Position numbers and translations under genes: made by a program. Source: Candidatus Gastranaerophilales bacterium (GTDB lineage Bacteria; Cyanobacteriota; Vampirovibrionia; Gastranaerophilales; Gastranaerophilaceae). Taken from it: a DNA stretch of 53,667 nt. How positions within the stretch are numbered: the first letter of the stretch is position 1; each line of letters starts with the position of its first letter. Shown in pieces: positions 8,776-42,073 of the stretch. The notes under the pieces were generated by a model. It was not told the DNA's origin and ran no database searches. It saw only the letters and a list, made by a program, of their open reading frames with translations. Where the stretch lies: positions 1-53,667 of the forward strand of contig CALURL010000013.1 in assembly GCA_944323155.1 (NCBI GenBank). Reading direction: 5' to 3'.

Positions 8776-9584
8776 ATGGAAAACTTATTTAGAAAGTCAG
8801 TCGGGGGGGGGGCACAGGCTTAGTCTCCTTTTCCAATAGTTTTTGCGGATTTACGCTTGCAGAGGTTTTAATTACTCTTGGAGTTATAGGTGTTGTTGCT
8901 GCATTAACTCTGCCTAATTTAATAGCTAATTACAAAGAAAAAGTTTTTGTAGCGTCCGCAAAGAAATCTTATTCAGTAGTAATGAACGCAATGAATAGCT
9001 GGTTAGCTAAAAATGGCACTCCCGGTGATTTTGAATCTTTTTGGTTTTATAGTTCAGATATCAATGCATTAGCTCAAGAATTTGCCAAAGAGTTGAATAG
9101 TGTTAAAGTTTGCACTAATTCAGATGTTGAGGCTTGCGGGGGTACTTATGATGTTCGTATGCCGCGCAAGATAAATGACGGGCATGGAAACACTGATTCA
9201 GAACGTTGGATTGGTGAACCTGTTAATCGTATAGTTTTGGCTGATGGCAGTTTTTTAGTTTTGTTATCAGAAATTAAAAATGGCAGCTGTACATATCAGC
9301 AATGGGGATCAGAAAGAGATAGTAATGGTTTTTTAATACCTGATCCTTCAAGTCCAAATGGCTATAAAGGTAAGTATTATACATATCATGGGTGTGGGCG
9401 AATTGCTTATGATACTAATGGTGTTAAACAACCAAATCAAATAGGTACTGATATCTTTATTATTGGATTCACTTCTAATGCTTATAAAAATGCTGATTAT
9501 GACTTGTGGGGTAATATTAATTATGTTCTAACAAATGATAAACTTATTATGACTGAAAATTATCAAACAGGAAAATATGAATAA
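8776..9584 (+). CDS. Prepilin-like protein with G10 tract, out of frame as written
   Basis: The ATG at 8776 has AAGGAGG 11 bases upstream. As written it reads only MENLFRKSVGGGAQA and then TAG (8821-8823), because the ten-G run at 8803-8812 leaves the start in a different frame from the body. With 11 G (or 8) the gene is one 269-residue prepilin: a ~25-residue leader ending SFCG, then FTLAEVLITLGVIG, the class-III/type IV prepilin N-terminus for prepilin-peptidase cleavage between G and F. The body (readable to 9584) has several cysteines and the C-terminal DTNG-x3-PN-x2-G-x-D-x-F motif shared with the two other prepilins here. It is probably a pilus or pseudopilus subunit that switches by slipped-strand mispairing. 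A sequencing undercall is the alternative. Confidence 0.85.
8803..8812 (+). repeat. G10 homopolymer in prepilin 1 leader
   Basis: Ten consecutive G within an AT-rich gene, codons 10-13 of the leader. Runs this long slip at high rate during replication. Ten gives the OFF frame, eleven or eight ON. Confidence 0.85.
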
Positions 9585-31940: not shown

Positions 31941-32749
31941 TTAATCCTCAAATTTATCGTCTAAGCTATAGTTTTCATAATTTAATTTGCCTGTTCGCAT
32001 TGTATCAAATAAATTTGCGTAATATGTCTTTTGCTCTAAAGCGGCCGGTTTAACTTCTATGCTAAAATTATCATAGCCAAATTGGTTTTTACCTTTGGGA
32101 CCGTCAGTGTCAATAAAGATATCTGCACATACATAAGATACCCTATCCTCCATTTCCCATCCGCCTTTGCCATCTGATATCCAGTTGCCATCGGCATCTG
32201 TTTTGTGTTCTAAATATTCCCATTTGCAGTCACTGCCTGAACCACGTTGATCACTAACAATTCTGATTATTGTTCCATCGGGTAATATGGCGCGTTCACC
32301 GTCCATTGTCCCTGCTGCAATACCGCCCTTGCCATCATTTTTTTTATTTTTATATTTTATTCTATATTTTCCGCCACAGCCGTTTGTATTGTAAGCACAT
32401 CTTTCAACAATATTTAGCTGAGCGAATATTTTGTCAGCAACTTCTGCCTCTGTATTTGAGTTGAACATCTCTGCGTAGTTTGAATATCCTTCATCTGCCA
32501 TTACTTTATTTATTGCATTTGCAAGTGTAGAATATGCTTTCTTTAACCTTACTACCGCAACCATTTCTTGATATTTTGCAACTAAATTAGGAAGAGTTAA
32601 TGCTGCAACGGCTCCAATAATCCCCAAAGTTATTAAAACTTCTGCTAAAGTAAATCCTGAACGATTCTTTATTTGTTTAAAGGTCTGAAAATGCCCTAAT
32701 ATAGACCTTTCGGGGGGGGGGCAATCAGCGCTGATTTACTATTATTCAT
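31941..32749 (-). CDS. Prepilin-like protein with C10 tract, out of frame as written
   Basis: ATG at 32749 with AAGGAGG and a near-consensus promoter upstream. As written, the ten-C coding run (plus-strand G 32712-32721) makes it read MNNSKSALIAPPPKGLY and stop. Eleven C (or eight) gives a 269-residue prepilin: a ~32-residue leader ending NRSG, then FTLAEVLITLGIIG, the prepilin-peptidase site. The body has a GGCGG-like Cys pair region (NGCGGKYRIK), a C-terminal DTDG-x3-KN-x2-G-x-D-x-F motif and lies in the reading frame down to 31941. The run codes for Pro here but Gly in the other two, so selection acts on the DNA run. Probable phase-variable pilin. Confidence 0.85.
32712..32721 (-). repeat. 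C10 homopolymer (coding strand) in prepilin 2 leader
   Basis: Ten G on the plus strand are ten C in the gene. Same length as in prepilins 1 and 3, and again one short of the ON frame. Confidence 0.85.
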
Positions 32750-32769
32750 ACTTTTACCTCCTTTTTTTA

Positions 32770-32803: not shown

Positions 32804-34591
32804 TTATTTATTTTGTCCGACTTGATTTCGTCCGTTATTTTTTGCATTATAAAGGCGTTTGTCTGCCGTTTCTATTATGCTTGGTGCATCTTCTCCGTCA
32901 AACGGGAATGTCGCAACTCCTAAGCTTATTGTTACATTGCTTTCTTTTCCGTTTGATAGTTTAAACGAATGTTCTGCTACACGCTTACAAATTTTTTCTG
33001 CTGTAGAATAAGCCTCATCTTTATCTGTGTTTGGAAGAATGATACTCATTTCCTCTCCACCGTAGCGGCAAACTATATCAGTTGCACGGACATTTTTTTT
33101 CAAAGTAAAGGCAACCTGTCTTAAAACTGCATCTCCTGACTGGTGGCCGAAAGTGTCGTTAAAGCGTTTGAAAAAGTCTATATCAATAATTATTAACGAA
33201 AAATTATTATTGTAACGTTTTGACTGTTCAACCTGCATGCGCATTTGTTCTTGAAAATATCTGTGATTATAAAGTTCTGTCAAGCCGTCTGTTGTGGCGA
33301 GTTTGTATTGCGCTTCAAAATCTCGTGATTTTATTAAATATTTGACTATGAATGCTACTGTGAAGGCTAAAATTGAGAATATCAACGGGTAAATAACTTC
33401 AAGCCATAAATCTCCAAAACGCATTGCATAATATGATATTAATAAATACATAAAGTAAGATGATAGAGAAACAAGTGAGGCTGCAAATGCTGAACTCAAG
33501 CCCATAACTGAAAATGCAATTATACTTGCTAAAACTAAACTTGCTATAATTGTAAAACTTTTATCTGCTTTTCTTATGAAATTGTTGTCAATAATATTGT
33601 TTACGTAAGTTGCCTGAACTTCTACTCCCGGGTAAACTTTGCCTGTTGGAACGGTTTTTATATCGAATAGACTTGAGGCTGTTGTGCCAAAATAAATAAT
33701 TTTATCCTTAAAATTGTAATTAAGCGCATTTTTTTCACCATTTAGTGCCCTAATCAATTGGTACATCGGAATATATGTATAAGTCCCTGCAGGCCCATAC
33801 CAGTTAAGAATTGCACTTCCATCTTTATCCAGAAATATCTCTCTGTTACCTGCGTGCAGGATTGAATTATTCGTAATTGATAAGCCTTTAATATCCTGTT
33901 TTTCTGTGTCAGATAAGTATTTCAATCCTACTTTAAGCGCAAGCTGGGGATAGAATTTCCCTTTATATTTTACAACAACGGGCATTTTTCTTAAAACTCC
34001 ATCATCAGAGCGGGAAACATTAATAATTCCTATATTCTCGCTGTTTTCCAAAATGCCATCAAGTATTGTTCTGCAATTTGTAAATGCCAGAGTTGAAAAA
34101 TCAATTTTTGAATTATTTTTTACATCAATTGTCAATTTTTCAGGAAGCTGCGGAGGAATTCTTAATTCTTCCGGCTGGTTATCAAAATTCATTGATGTAA
34201 ATACATTATTATATTTTTTGAATGAGTTTATCAGTGACAAATCTGCGTTATTGTCGCTTTTCATTGATTTAACAAACATTAAATCAAACGCTATAATATT
34301 TGGATTTTGTAATTCAAGATAATCAATTAATTTTGCGTAAATATCCCTTGGTAAAGGCCATTCTCCATAGTGATCCAGAATATATTCATAGCTTGCATCA
34401 TCTATTGCAATTATAACTATATCCTCATTATGCTTCTTTACACCCTCGTTAATCATTATGCTCTGGCGTAAATCAAATGTTCTGTTTTCGACAACATTTA
34501 TAAAATTATTAAGGTTTGCATTTTTCAAGATTAAAAACGCAAATATAGCAAAAATTATTAAACCCAGCGTGTATGAAATTTTTTTGAACAT
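32804..34591 (-). CDS. CHASE2-GGDEF diguanylate cyclase
   Basis: A 595-residue membrane sensor. One helix (about 9-24), a large periplasmic CHASE2 domain (about 30-330, with VIIAIDDASYEYI and GEWPLPRDIYAKLI), then three helices (about 345-415) and a C-terminal GGDEF domain (about 435-590). The signature is GGEEM at about 518-522: the second residue E is accepted, but the final F is M. The RxxD product-inhibition site is intact five residues upstream (RATD). It probably makes cyclic di-GMP. It lies beside prepilin genes, whose pili are commonly under c-di-GMP control. GGGAGG precedes ATG. Confidence 0.88.
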   Translation of the reverse strand: MFKKISYTLGLIIFAIFAFLILKNANLNNFINVVENRTFDLRQSIMINEGVKKHNEDIVIIAIDDASYEYILDHYGEWPLPRDIYAKLIDYLELQNPNIIAFDLMFVKSMKSDNNADLSLINSFKKYNNVFTSMNFDNQPEELRIPPQLPEKLTIDVKNNSKIDFSTLAFTNCRTILDGILENSENIGIINVSRSDDGVLRKMPVVVKYKGKFYPQLALKVGLKYLSDTEKQDIKGLSITNNSILHAGNREIFLDKDGSAILNWYGPAGTYTYIPMYQLIRALNGEKNALNYNFKDKIIYFGTTASSLFDIKTVPTGKVYPGVEVQATYVNNIIDNNFIRKADKSFTIIASLVLASIIAFSVMGLSSAFAASLVSLSSYFMYLLISYYAMRFGDLWLEVIYPLIFSILAFTVAFIVKYLIKSRDFEAQYKLATTDGLTELYNHRYFQEQMRMQVEQSKRYNNNFSLIIIDIDFFKRFNDTFGHQSGDAVLRQVAFTLKKNVRATDIVCRYGGEEMSIILPNTDKDEAYSTAEKICKRVAEHSFKLSNGKESNVTISLGVATFPFDGEDAPSIIETADKRLYNAKNNGRNQVGQNK

Positions 34592-35353: not shown

Positions 35354-36144
35354 ATGAAAAGATTATTTAAGAAGCTTATCGGGGGGGGGGCAAACGTCGC
35401 GTAGAGTTCGTTTTCTCCTTTTATAGATGTGCTTTTACCCTTGCGGAAGTTTTGGTTACTTTAGGAATTATCGGAATTGTCGCAGCTTTGACTTTGCCTA
35501 GTTTGATTACAGATTATAAAGATAAAGTTTTTGCTGCAAGAGCTAAAAAAACTTATTCTCTGATTGCTCAGGCTATTGCCAAGTATCAGGCTGATGAAGG
35601 TACTGTTGGTGATATTACTGGATTATTTGATACCTCTAAAACTTCCGAAGAAGTTTTACTAAATTTCTCAAAGTATTTTCAGGTCACAGATATATGTTTA
35701 GATTATTCTTGTCCTAAATATTTATATGATATTGCTTATGATTCAATAAAATATGATGTAAACAATGAAGCAGTTCTTGGGGAATCGTCCCCTCCAATAA
35801 TGATTTTAAAAGACGGTACACTTATATGGATTAAGCAATATGCTTCCTGTAAACACGAAACATCAGGCGTTCGTTATAATCCAGATGGCACAACAGTTGT
35901 AGATGACGATGGAAAACCGATTATTTTTACATTTAAGCATGAATACTGTGCAGAAGTGGCTTTTGATACAAATGGGTCTGCCGGACCAAATGTTTTTGGA
36001 GCCGATGCTTTTGGATTACACATATTAGAAAATGGCAGTTTTACGACAAATACAGCAAGCGGACATAAGAGTCTGCAAAGTATTTTGCAGGGCGGTGATC
36101 CTATATATAAAATTTATCATAAAGGGGAAAAATTCGAAGGGTAA
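35354..36144 (+). CDS. Prepilin-like protein with G10 tract, out of frame as written
   Basis: ATG at 35354 follows AAGGAGA. With the ten G at 35381-35390 the frame reads MKRLFKKLIGGGANVA and stops at TAG 35402-35404. Eleven or eight G gives a 263-residue prepilin: a ~27-residue leader rich in Lys/Arg, then FTLAEVLVTLGIIG after RCA, the prepilin-peptidase site. The body has a cysteine group (CLDYSC) and the C-terminal DTNG-x3-PN-x2-G-x-D-x-F motif. The first residues (MKRLFKKLI) parallel those of prepilin 1 (MENLFRKSV). Same OFF length as the other two. Either phase variation or a consistent undercall. Confidence 0.85.
35381..35390 (+). repeat. G10 homopolymer in prepilin 3 leader
   Basis: Ten consecutive G (codons 10-13 of the leader). 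Identical length and placement as in prepilin 1. Confidence 0.85.
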
Positions 36145-38587: not shown

Positions 38588-41500
38588 ATGGAATGTCCAA
38601 AATGCGGTTTAGAAATTGATGATAAGGCATTAGTGTGTCCGAATTGTAAAAAGGTGCTTAAATTAGTCTGCCCTATTTGCAAAACGGTTAACACTACTAA
38701 TGTCTGCAAAAAATGCGGTTATGTAATTATTACAAAATGCCACAAATGCGGCAAGGTAAATCAGACCGCTGCCAAAAAGTGCAAAAAATGCGGCTTTGAT
38801 ACAGAAAAAAGTGTTATTCTGAATGAAGCTAATACTGATGAATTTGTCCTTATGACAATTGATTTCCCAAATATGGATCAAATGAAGTCACTTCTTGGCT
38901 CTGCAAAACTTTATAATAAGTTTAAAATTAATTTGGATAAAATTATTCTTGATTATACGAAATCTGTTGGTTTGCGCAGGCAAATTGTTAATAGTACTTA
39001 TTTAATCAGGTGCGATAAGGATTATACTTTTAAGGTTTCCTCTGAAACTGCTATTAAGACGGCTGTTGAACTTTTAAATCGTATTACTGCAATGAATTGC
39101 AAGCTTACAAAGAAGAAAAATGCTACTATTCGTACAAATATTTTTCTTTTAAAACGTTCAATTTCTGATGCTCCTTATGATTACCAGTCTGGTATGAATA
39201 TAAGTTTGATAAATCAGTATGCAAAGAATAAAGATGAGAAAATTTTAAATACATTCCAAATTCTGACTGACCAAGCAGTCTGCGATGTCTTAGAAGCTGA
39301 TTATAGGGTTACACCGCTTAATTCGGTTGTGGTTAATGATGAAATGGTTATGTTTTATGAAGTTGACGTAAAAGATCTTGTTAAAGTCGAATATCCTGAG
39401 GAAGAAGAAAGCGAAGAAATAAAAATACCTAATTTTGTTCAAAATATGCTTGTGGAACAAGATAAGCTTGATGGTATTGCACTTAATAAACTTGATGCTC
39501 AAGAGGATCCTGATGCAATTTACGATATAGAAACTATTAATTTTGCGGAAGTTAATTGTGACTTTGTAAGGTGTGAGAATATTGATGTTTTTTCTGTCGT
39601 TGCAAATAAATTAAAAACTACTCCTAAAGGTATTATTGCAATCAAGACGGAAGATCTTTATAAGCCTTATTCGCTAAAATTGTTGAATATGATTGAAGGT
39701 TTAAATATTTATAGCAATATAATTACTTTAACCTGTTACGATGAAATGAAATATTCTCCATATTCATTCTTTAGAGATTTAGTGTCTGCTATTTTTGAAT
39801 ATACAGTTTCACAAAAATTATTTTCAAATAATGATTTTTCGATGTTTAAAAATGTCGATCCTGACGGCATGGTTAAGGATTTGATAACCCTGCATTCAAG
39901 AGATGTTGATAATGCGGAAGATACAAGATATGTTTATTTTGATATCTTTTTAACGCTTTTGCAGGCTATTCCAAATACTCTTATATTCATAGAAAATTTT
40001 GAAAAAATTGATTCCAGCTCTTATGATGTTCTAAAATATCTTTTTGAAGCTTTTGATCAACTTGAGATAAGTTATCTAATTTCTTATGAAAAAGGTTTCT
40101 CATTGCATAAAGATGCTCACTTCTTATTAACCAGAGAAAATTATACAGAAGTTACTCTCAAACCTACGCCTTTTGAAAAAATGATTGAGGAAAATAAATA
40201 TTATTATAGAAATATTCTTGATAATTTTTATTTTCAGCGTATTGCAAAATATTCTTGTGGAAGCATTTTATTTATTGATATTGCAATTCAGTATTTAATA
40301 GAATCAGAAATATTTGTTGCCAAAGACGATTGTATTGAGATGATTAACCCAAAAACTATTATCATCCCGTCAACTCTGGAACGCCTGATGAAACGTCGTT
40401 TAAATCTTTTGAAAGATGATCCTGAAGCTCTGAAATTTTTAACATCAGTTGTTCTGCTTGGTACAAGAATTGATGTCGCAACTATTGAAAGTTTAGGTTT
40501 TGAAAATGTTACTGAAATAATTGATAAACTTACTCAAATGGGTTATGTTTATTTTTATAATAACTGCATGTATTTCCCTAATTATAATCTTTTAAGAGCG
40601 TGTATATTAGAGGTAATTGCTCCTGTCACATTAAGGGATCTGGCTAATGAATTATTTGTGAAAGTCTTTAATTATAATATGCCTAGCCCTGTTAAGGCAT
40701 ATTTATATGACCTTCTTGGCGATACTGAATATGAACGTGCAGAGTGGGAAAGTCTTGCACAGGTAAATTTATCGCTTGGTGATTTTAGCGCTTATCTGAA
40801 TTGTACCCAGAAAATTCTTGAGCTTTTGGATAAGAATGCTGACCCAAATTCTCAGAACGCTATTGAAGAATATAAACTGCAATTATATGAAAATATTTCT
40901 AATAATCTGTATGATTATGTTCCGGATAAGACTTCTGATATCGCTGAAATAACTTTGAAAAATCTTGAAAAAGCAAAAGATGCTGAAAAAACAATAAAGC
41001 TTTGTAACAAGATGATTCAAGGCAATTTGATTACCGGAAATTATACGCATGCATTAGAGCTTACTCATAAAGTGCTTTCTCTTCTTCCGCCATCATCACT
41101 AAGCCCTGACGCTCCTAATTATAATAGTTATTTCTTCTTGATGTCGTTAGTGCATATTCAAATTCTATTTAATATTGGCGCTTTGAATGACTGTATGGAA
41201 GTTGGATTTAAGGTTTTAAATGTTGTATCTGAAAATAGTATTGCAAAACTTAAACCGGAATATATTTCAGAAGAAGAATTCAGGCTTCTTCTAGTTGATG
41301 CAATTGGTTATGTCGCTCTTGCTAATGTTCTTATGTTAGCAGGAAATGTTCAGGACTTTTTAAGAATTGTAAGGGAAGATTTCAAAGATGTTCCTAAATC
41401 TTATGATATATTTATTGCACTTCAAGATATGATACATGGCTATGCACCAAGTGTGCAGGTTCAGGAAATTGCCCCAAATGATAAATTCACAGGTGTTATT

Positions 41501-42073
41501 ATTCATTTGATGAATGCATTTTTAGACTTTAATGGCGATTATATTAGGTTTGCTGAAGAAATTTACAAGGCTAAAATTCTTGCGAAAGTTAATGCTTTGC
41601 ATCAGCTGGAATTGTTCGCTGATTTATTTATTGGTGTGGCTTATATGAACATTGCTTCTTACCAAAAAGCAGATTATATTATTTATAAAATCATAAAAAC
41701 AACTAATAATAATGGAATGACTACTTTGCTATATGTGGCCTGGTATATGATGAGTGAGTTAAAACTTAAGCTGCACAAATATGAGACTGCTTATGGTATT
41801 GTAAACAATTCTTTAATCCAGTTGGAAAAAAGTAATTTGACAACAGAATACTTGTTAATGCTCTTTAAATATAATATGTTTAAAGTGCTTATGTATCAAA
41901 AACAATTTGATAAAGCAGAAATTTGTATCGAACAGGCAAAATATCTTGCAGCAAAATATAGTATTAATTTCATGTTTGATACAAATCCTGATAGTTATCT
42001 TCCTTTAGAAGAAGATAATATTGATAATAATGATGATAATAGTGATATGGCAACAATAGACGATCTTGGCTAA
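38588..42073 (+). CDS. Zinc-ribbon, cyclase-like, STAND-like ATPase and TPR-type protein
   Basis: A 1161-residue protein. Three zinc ribbons open it: C3/C6/C17/C20, C28/C31/C40/C43 and C51/C54/C65/C68. Residues about 84-280 resemble a degenerate class III nucleotide cyclase domain (VLMTIDFPNM, a ~190-residue span), which lacks obvious metal-binding aspartates. Residues about 340-600 match the layout of a STAND/AAA ATPase, but the P-loop is not seen (KTEDLYKPYS sits where GxxGxGKS is expected), while LIFIENFEKID looks like a Walker B relic. The remaining ~550 residues are helical repeats, TPR-like. Cyclase-AAA-TPR fusions usually act as regulators. This one may be a scaffold that has lost catalysis. 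glgA follows after 15 bases, so a role in glycogen control is a hypothesis. Confidence 0.7.
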   Translation: MECPKCGLEIDDKALVCPNCKKVLKLVCPICKTVNTTNVCKKCGYVIITKCHKCGKVNQTAAKKCKKCGFDTEKSVILNEANTDEFVLMTIDFPNMDQMKSLLGSAKLYNKFKINLDKIILDYTKSVGLRRQIVNSTYLIRCDKDYTFKVSSETAIKTAVELLNRITAMNCKLTKKKNATIRTNIFLLKRSISDAPYDYQSGMNISLINQYAKNKDEKILNTFQILTDQAVCDVLEADYRVTPLNSVVVNDEMVMFYEVDVKDLVKVEYPEEEESEEIKIPNFVQNMLVEQDKLDGIALNKLDAQEDPDAIYDIETINFAEVNCDFVRCENIDVFSVVANKLKTTPKGIIAIKTEDLYKPYSLKLLNMIEGLNIYSNIITLTCYDEMKYSPYSFFRDLVSAIFEYTVSQKLFSNNDFSMFKNVDPDGMVKDLITLHSRDVDNAEDTRYVYFDIFLTLLQAIPNTLIFIENFEKIDSSSYDVLKYLFEAFDQLEISYLISYEKGFSLHKDAHFLLTRENYTEVTLKPTPFEKMIEENKYYYRNILDNFYFQRIAKYSCGSILFIDIAIQYLIESEIFVAKDDCIEMINPKTIIIPSTLERLMKRRLNLLKDDPEALKFLTSVVLLGTRIDVATIESLGFENVTEIIDKLTQMGYVYFYNNCMYFPNYNLLRACILEVIAPVTLRDLANELFVKVFNYNMPSPVKAYLYDLLGDTEYERAEWESLAQVNLSLGDFSAYLNCTQKILELLDKNADPNSQNAIEEYKLQLYENISNNLYDYVPDKTSDIAEITLKNLEKAKDAEKTIKLCNKMIQGNLITGNYTHALELTHKVLSLLPPSSLSPDAPNYNSYFFLMSLVHIQILFNIGALNDCMEVGFKVLNVVSENSIAKLKPEYISEEEFRLLLVDAIGYVALANVLMLAGNVQDFLRIVREDFKDVPKSYDIFIALQDMIHGYAPSVQVQEIAPNDKFTGVIIHLMNAFLDFNGDYIRFAEEIYKAKILAKVNALHQLELFADLFIGVAYMNIASYQKADYIIYKIIKTTNNNGMTTLLYVAWYMMSELKLKLHKYETAYGIVNNSLIQLEKSNLTTEYLLMLFKYNMFKVLMYQKQFDKAEICIEQAKYLAAKYSINFMFDTNPDSYLPLEEDNIDNNDDNSDMATIDDLG

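Follow-up and report, generated by a model that had tools for sequence, protein, structure and literature searches.

The prepilin 2 gene of Candidatus Gastranaerophilales, studied here in a window of 53,667 nucleotides (the whole stretch of DNA that was analyzed), is very probably one of about 76 type IV prepilin genes of this genome that are phase-variable by a poly-G or poly-C run, most of them OFF and a single base away from ON. This reading is built on the observed anatomy of the genes, their reading frames, the distribution of run lengths, length changes between copies, conservation in four genomes and purifying selection on the mature parts; from these we infer slippage as the process, expression of a gene whenever it is in frame, and a benefit of the variation. 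Each gene has its own Shine-Dalgarno sequence and ATG, and its cleaved leader is lengthened at the N terminus by a short stretch that contains a pure G or C run; in the proposed switch the length of this run sets the frame. At 10 bases translation would soon stop and the pilin would not be made (OFF), while the gain of one base (11) or the loss of two (8) would connect the start with the prepilin (ON). The run length would change through slipped-strand mispairing during replication, and independent switching of each gene would lead a cell to express a small, shifting subset of its pilins. As prepilin peptidase would remove the leader, it should be immaterial whether the run is read as Gly or Pro.

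The plus strand of the window carries three G10 runs, at 8803-8812, 32712-32721 and 35381-35390. Prepilin 2 is encoded on the minus strand, where the run at 32712-32721 is read as C10 and gives Pro; the runs of prepilins 1 and 3, both on the plus strand, are read as Gly. The sequence-only reading had given this account of the three loci, and its start codon, Shine-Dalgarno sequence and distance from ATG to run were also right (27, 28 and 27 nt from the A of the ATG to the run in prepilins 1, 2 and 3). In coding order prepilin 2 has a GGAGG Shine-Dalgarno sequence (32757-32761), the ATG (32749-32747) with the first nine codons of the leader extension, MNNSKSALI plus a G (32722-32749), the C10 run, and the remainder of the leader, ERSILGHFQTFKQIKNRSG, without an in-frame ATG, GTG or TTG (32655-32711). 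The arrangement ATG...GCGCTGATTG-C10-GAAAGG reads as ...IAPPP, and the leader as a whole is MNNSKSALIAPPPE. The mature protein (31941-32654, minus strand; FTLAEVLITLG..., 237 aa) is intact, matches N_methyl (PF07963), and has the cleavage and methylation motif G/A-F-T-L-x-E and the hydrophobic N-terminal helix of type IV prepilins. Its predicted structure consists of a long N-terminal helix and a beta-rich head (pLDDT 88.8), and a PDB fold search with the mature protein gave no significant match for the head domain. Only two matches to prepilin 2 were found in named genomes, both distant (32-34%) and both in Candidatus Gastranaerophilales MAGs. Prepilins 1 and 3 have their start and the leader extension that precedes the run at 8776-8802 and 35354-35380, and their mature parts at 8850-9584 and 35434-36144. 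A gene for a CHASE2-GGDEF protein (32804-34591, minus strand) precedes prepilin 2 on its strand at a distance of 54 bp, and the two may form one transcript. Elsewhere in the window an ORF of 1161 aa without a Pfam match (E 1e-10) adjoins a starch-synthase-like gene (38588-42073, plus strand).

Runs of this kind are far in excess of chance. Under a first-order Markov model of the window 0.013 G/C runs of at least 9 bases are expected in the window and three were observed; for the 1.79 Mb genome the figures are 0.3-0.4 expected and about 90 observed. All ninety runs were taken with their flanks for the census, which placed 76 of them in prepilin leaders, 24-30 nt after the start codon, 66 coded as Gly (G) and 10 as Pro (C). 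The three loci of the window, which had been treated as the whole set, are thus real and a mere sample. Read on the G strand, the fetched regions contained 33 runs of 5, none of 6-8, one of 9, 73 of 10, 11 of 11 and two of 12, and two C runs of 6-7. The run codons are pure GGG or CCC in a genome that uses GGG for 10% of its glycines and CCC for 3% of its prolines. The remaining 14 runs lie outside prepilin leaders, among them runs in glycosyltransferases of families 2 and 8 and in one capsule-synthesis gene. Glycosyltransferases are typical phase-variable genes. Non-prepilin runs noted individually (L022, L025, L050, L078:4087-4914, L059, L014 and L058) are mostly also of length 10, with glycosyltransferase, capsule-synthesis, Mur-ligase-like, nucleotidyltransferase and radical-SAM genes as hosts.

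At length 10 the frame is broken in prepilins 1, 2 and 3, and the product of prepilin 2 would terminate as MNNSKSALIAPPPKGLY*. In each of the three only 8 or 11 bases connect the ATG with FTLAEVLITLG, and none of them has an in-frame ATG, GTG or TTG between run and cleavage site. The earlier claim that tract length and position are kept stands (all three are 10 bases long and begin at 27-28 nt); that this length breaks every one of the frames had been overlooked, as had the origin of the C form in an antiparallel gene and the family of about 76. About 71 of the 73 readable genes of this genome come into frame at a length of 2 mod 3 (11), as do 25/27, 9/9 and 26/28 genes of two congeners (G001, G002) and a member of another genus (G008), G- and C-coded genes alike; length 10 is therefore an OFF length. 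An in-frame start with a Shine-Dalgarno sequence downstream of the run is absent in 68 of 74 genes of this genome. About 80% of the prepilin-leader runs have exactly 10 bases, and some 9-10 genes (about 12-14%) are ON. When this genome and its relatives are taken together, 16 of 137 copies are ON against the one third expected under neutral drift (p 4.6e-9, for copies that are related and not independent). In L023 the start is at -29, the in-frame length is 11 and the gene is OFF. The sister prepilins L036 and L077 (FTLSEVIIVM) both have G10; L036 has two bases fewer before the run and is ON at 10, and L077 is OFF.

The leaders of orthologues, which the sequence-only reading had proposed to align, behave as it foresaw. 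In both congeners and in the second genus the run lies 24-30 nt after the ATG with an in-frame length of 11 and a commonest length of 10, in G-coded and C-coded leaders, and its position persists while the flanks drift. Kin of the prepilin 2 leader were found in G008 (MNTQEAFRIAPPPEK, two copies, C10 and C11) and in G001 (MIRGRAWRIAPPPE, C10). The opposite pattern, of Gly or Pro residues kept by mixed codons with no pure homopolymer, was not seen in those genomes. Broken runs of the GGGGHGGGG type are rare (0-7 per genome), and the three broken runs examined in leaders (two GGGGHGGGG, one GGGGGGTGG) stand in frames without a usable start; they look like decayed copies rather than kept Gly or Pro residues. 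Among close copies, taken as pairs that share at least 46 of 50 flank bases, run lengths are unequal in 2/4 pairs in this genome, 8/9 in G001, 2/4 in G002 and 2/17 in G008, the lengths being 12/10 and 11/10 here, 9/10/11/12 in G001 and C10/C11 in G008; these are comparisons of paralogs from one and the same genome. Runs are present in more distant genomes as well, where the common lengths are different (11, 12, 13), as are the in-frame lengths. In G001 (L081-L106) and G008 (L152) a sigma-70-like promoter (TTGTAA...TATACT/TATAAT) and a second ATG are present between run and cleavage site, which may allow some of the pilins of these genomes to be produced independently of the run.

Slippage at the RNA level and assembly error are the main rivals to a phase-variable switch. 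The run lengths are tighter, with about 80% at exactly 10, than free drift might give, which counts against our preferred reading although the peak in Campylobacter is similar, and the OFF state of about 85% of copies could alternatively mean that RNA-level slippage is needed to read the gene. The run would then be fixed at 10 and the frame restored by transcriptional slippage or -1 frameshifting, with low and constant expression from all copies, as the sharp peak at 10 beside an in-frame length of 11 in four genomes and the intact, selected mature genes behind an OFF frame would suggest. We regard this as unlikely, because lengths of 9, 11 and 12 occur among near-identical copies, because C and G runs would both need to slip the same way, and because the non-prepilin runs of the genome are also mostly of length 10. 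Furthermore, the common length is one above the in-frame length in G011 and G015 (13), and G012 (11) and G005 (mixed 9-12) show the same in their few readable copies; a shift of opposite sign would be required there. If instead the true lengths were 11 (ON) and short-read assembly had shortened them to 10, the OFF state would be an artefact. The assembly is metagenome-like, with 34 contigs, and those of the relatives G005 and G018 break near runs; but other loci of this very assembly were called at 11 and 12, the mode recurs in three further genomes, and still others have 11, 12 or 13, which makes such an artefact very improbable. Under the phase-variation reading the genes show what is known of contingency loci: a run far beyond chance in coding sequence, a length that shifts the frame ahead of an intact downstream gene, and lengths that vary between close copies. 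That the runs arose or are kept for switching, as had been suggested, is strongly indicated by frame, length and copy variation, and switching itself is what we infer from them.

The C-coded genes have in common that they run antiparallel to their G-coded neighbours. The G run thereby remains on the chromosome strand used by the runs around it, and a gene of opposite direction reads it as C. In adjacent prepilin pairs of this genome, G001 and G008 (n=95) the G runs are on the same strand in 93 cases and the genes in 74, and every C-coded gene with a G-coded neighbour on its contig conforms (17/17, p 7.6e-6). The shared strand extends across distances of tens to hundreds of kilobases. A G008 contig of some 1 Mb has at least 15 runs on the plus strand and then five on the minus strand, with a single switch. 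Comparable non-prepilin runs follow the same polarity in 9 of 11 cases. On the G strand, the flanks of C-coded runs match the G-coded flanks of their own species, and not those of the other species, in 7 of 10 cases here and in the one case of G001 (L033, p about 1e-5; L098, p about 6e-5); those of prepilin 2 itself give no significant match (p 0.10). GC skew over 92 kb of contig C1 and 37 kb of C8 was weak and gene-driven, with no clean replichores, and dnaA (C6:52476) lies inside a contig of one polarity and marks no polarity switch. A universal rule of one strand for G runs is not supported in G011 and G012. In these genomes (G011 L193-L212, G012 L173-L192) two leader families of opposite polarity occur per contig, both Gly-coded, as in G011 C9 with family I on the minus and family II on the plus strand. 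The strand-locked polarity is likely caused by the direction of replication. We tentatively consider it possible, though on balance doubtful, that run and short flanks together form a DNA module locked to one strand, that G runs are made, kept or copied by a process specific to one replication strand, on a single chromosome strand only and whatever the direction of the gene, and that Gly or Pro coding is a by-product. Such a module would explain the own-species flanks that C-coded runs have on the G strand, and also the polarity that most of the unrelated glycosyltransferase genes share.

These flank matches, together with the shuffling of leaders and mature domains, would also be expected if the runs were a recombination signal like the guanine quartet of gonococcal pilE, starting gene conversion between pilins with the frame effect secondary. 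We hold this to be about as improbable as an assembly artefact, since a Shine-Dalgarno sequence and start in every gene leave no place for a silent store with a single expression site, a single G10 run is not a quartet motif, the uniform in-frame length of 11 would be left unexplained, and the flanks of prepilin 2 fall short of significance. Membership of a pilE/pilS system with its guanine quartet was rejected for the same presence of a Shine-Dalgarno sequence and ATG in each copy and of a single G10 or C10 run.

When 63 mature domains were placed in a maximum-likelihood tree, the seven long C-coded genes required seven changes, of which well-supported branches force at least six, and the nearest paralog of prepilin 2 (L062, 59% identical) is G-coded. 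This scatter means that the residue is exchanged freely and that leader type and mature domain are inherited separately, as the sequence-only reading had anticipated in taking the DNA run, and not the residue, as the conserved feature; it suggests, from the tree, that mature domains may have been exchanged between loci. A single lineage of C-coded genes is rejected for the mature domains by the seven changes for seven genes; the C-coded leaders themselves may be one family. Although GGGG or PPP appears in nearly all run-bearing leaders when in frame, the idea of a Gly- or Pro-rich leader motif kept for secretion has a negligible chance of being right, given the at least six replacements of one residue by the other, the pure GGG or CCC codons, the short leaders of run-less prepilins without such a motif, and a common length at which the motif is not joined to the pilin; we have therefore rejected a protein-motif reading of the run. 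The mature genes are under purifying selection, with dN/dS of about 0.2 between prepilin paralogs and 0.15 between prepilin 2 and its nearest paralog, where dS is near saturation. Early stops are present in about 6 of 75 mature genes, 3/10 C-coded against 3/65 G-coded (p 0.03; loci L048, L056:4330, L075 and L011, L073, L074).

In Campylobacter poly-G/C runs of this length drive phase variation, with a length peak of 53% at 9 and 5% poly-C on coding strands (PMC6321876). Its contingency loci share with the genes described here runs of about 9-10 G/C within ORFs, a sharp length peak, an AT-rich genome, frame-set ON and OFF states and glycosyltransferases among the targets (PMC6321876, PMC8355987); they comprise 18-39 mixed genes, whereas here about 76 belong to one prepilin family, with 13% poly-C and the G run on one chromosome strand. 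The opa genes of Neisseria gonorrhoeae are likewise scattered surface-protein paralogs in which a leader-coding repeat switches each frame independently (PMC3745409), but with CTCTT pentamers in about 11 genes in place of G/C runs in about 76 prepilins mostly OFF by one base. The prepilins are paralogous surface genes each with its own start and leader repeat, and would work like Opa without being homologous to it. Neisseria pilE/pilS also yields type IV pilin diversity, and copy exchange is suggested here by the mismatch between leader type and mature tree; in that system a single expressed gene receives sequence by conversion from silent copies beside a guanine quartet (PMC3547852), and here each copy has its own start and run. 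Compared with type IV prepilins at large (PF07963/TIGR02532), the cleavage and methylation motif and the long N-terminal helix are shared, the run-bearing N-terminal extension is added, and no solved structure matches the head domain significantly. A search of the open literature found no paper joining Gastranaerophilales with phase variation and nothing relevant on Gastranaerophilales pilins.

Prepilin 2 belongs to a large new case of a known type of switch, to which a strand rule is added. With about 76 pilins in 1.8 Mb of genome, in a gut cyanobacterial lineage, this would be one of the largest single-family phase-variation repertoires known to us, and it suggests a route to surface change against host or phage with most pilins silent. 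For annotation it is a warning, as most such genes would be called truncated or started too late. Through the strand rule the effect of replication direction on G-run stability can be tested in a natural setting, in that paralogs carry the same switch as G or C according to strand.

Seven prepilins without runs were examined and all have short ordinary leaders; the run-bearing extension is therefore an added module. Long in-frame inserts of dispersed repeats are found in the prepilin leaders of L171, L172, L075, L010, L142 and L146 (ATHVD..., CHSELVSES..., IASSQAPRNDG...), which gives the cleaved leader the look of a site that tolerates insertion. A repeat longer than 100 bp is present in about 25 copies in G018 (L121-L140), with an internal G11-14 run of variable length (CTTGCTACGACTTAGTATTC-Gn-CAAGTTAAATGTACAACAGGAG); many of the copies are at contig ends.
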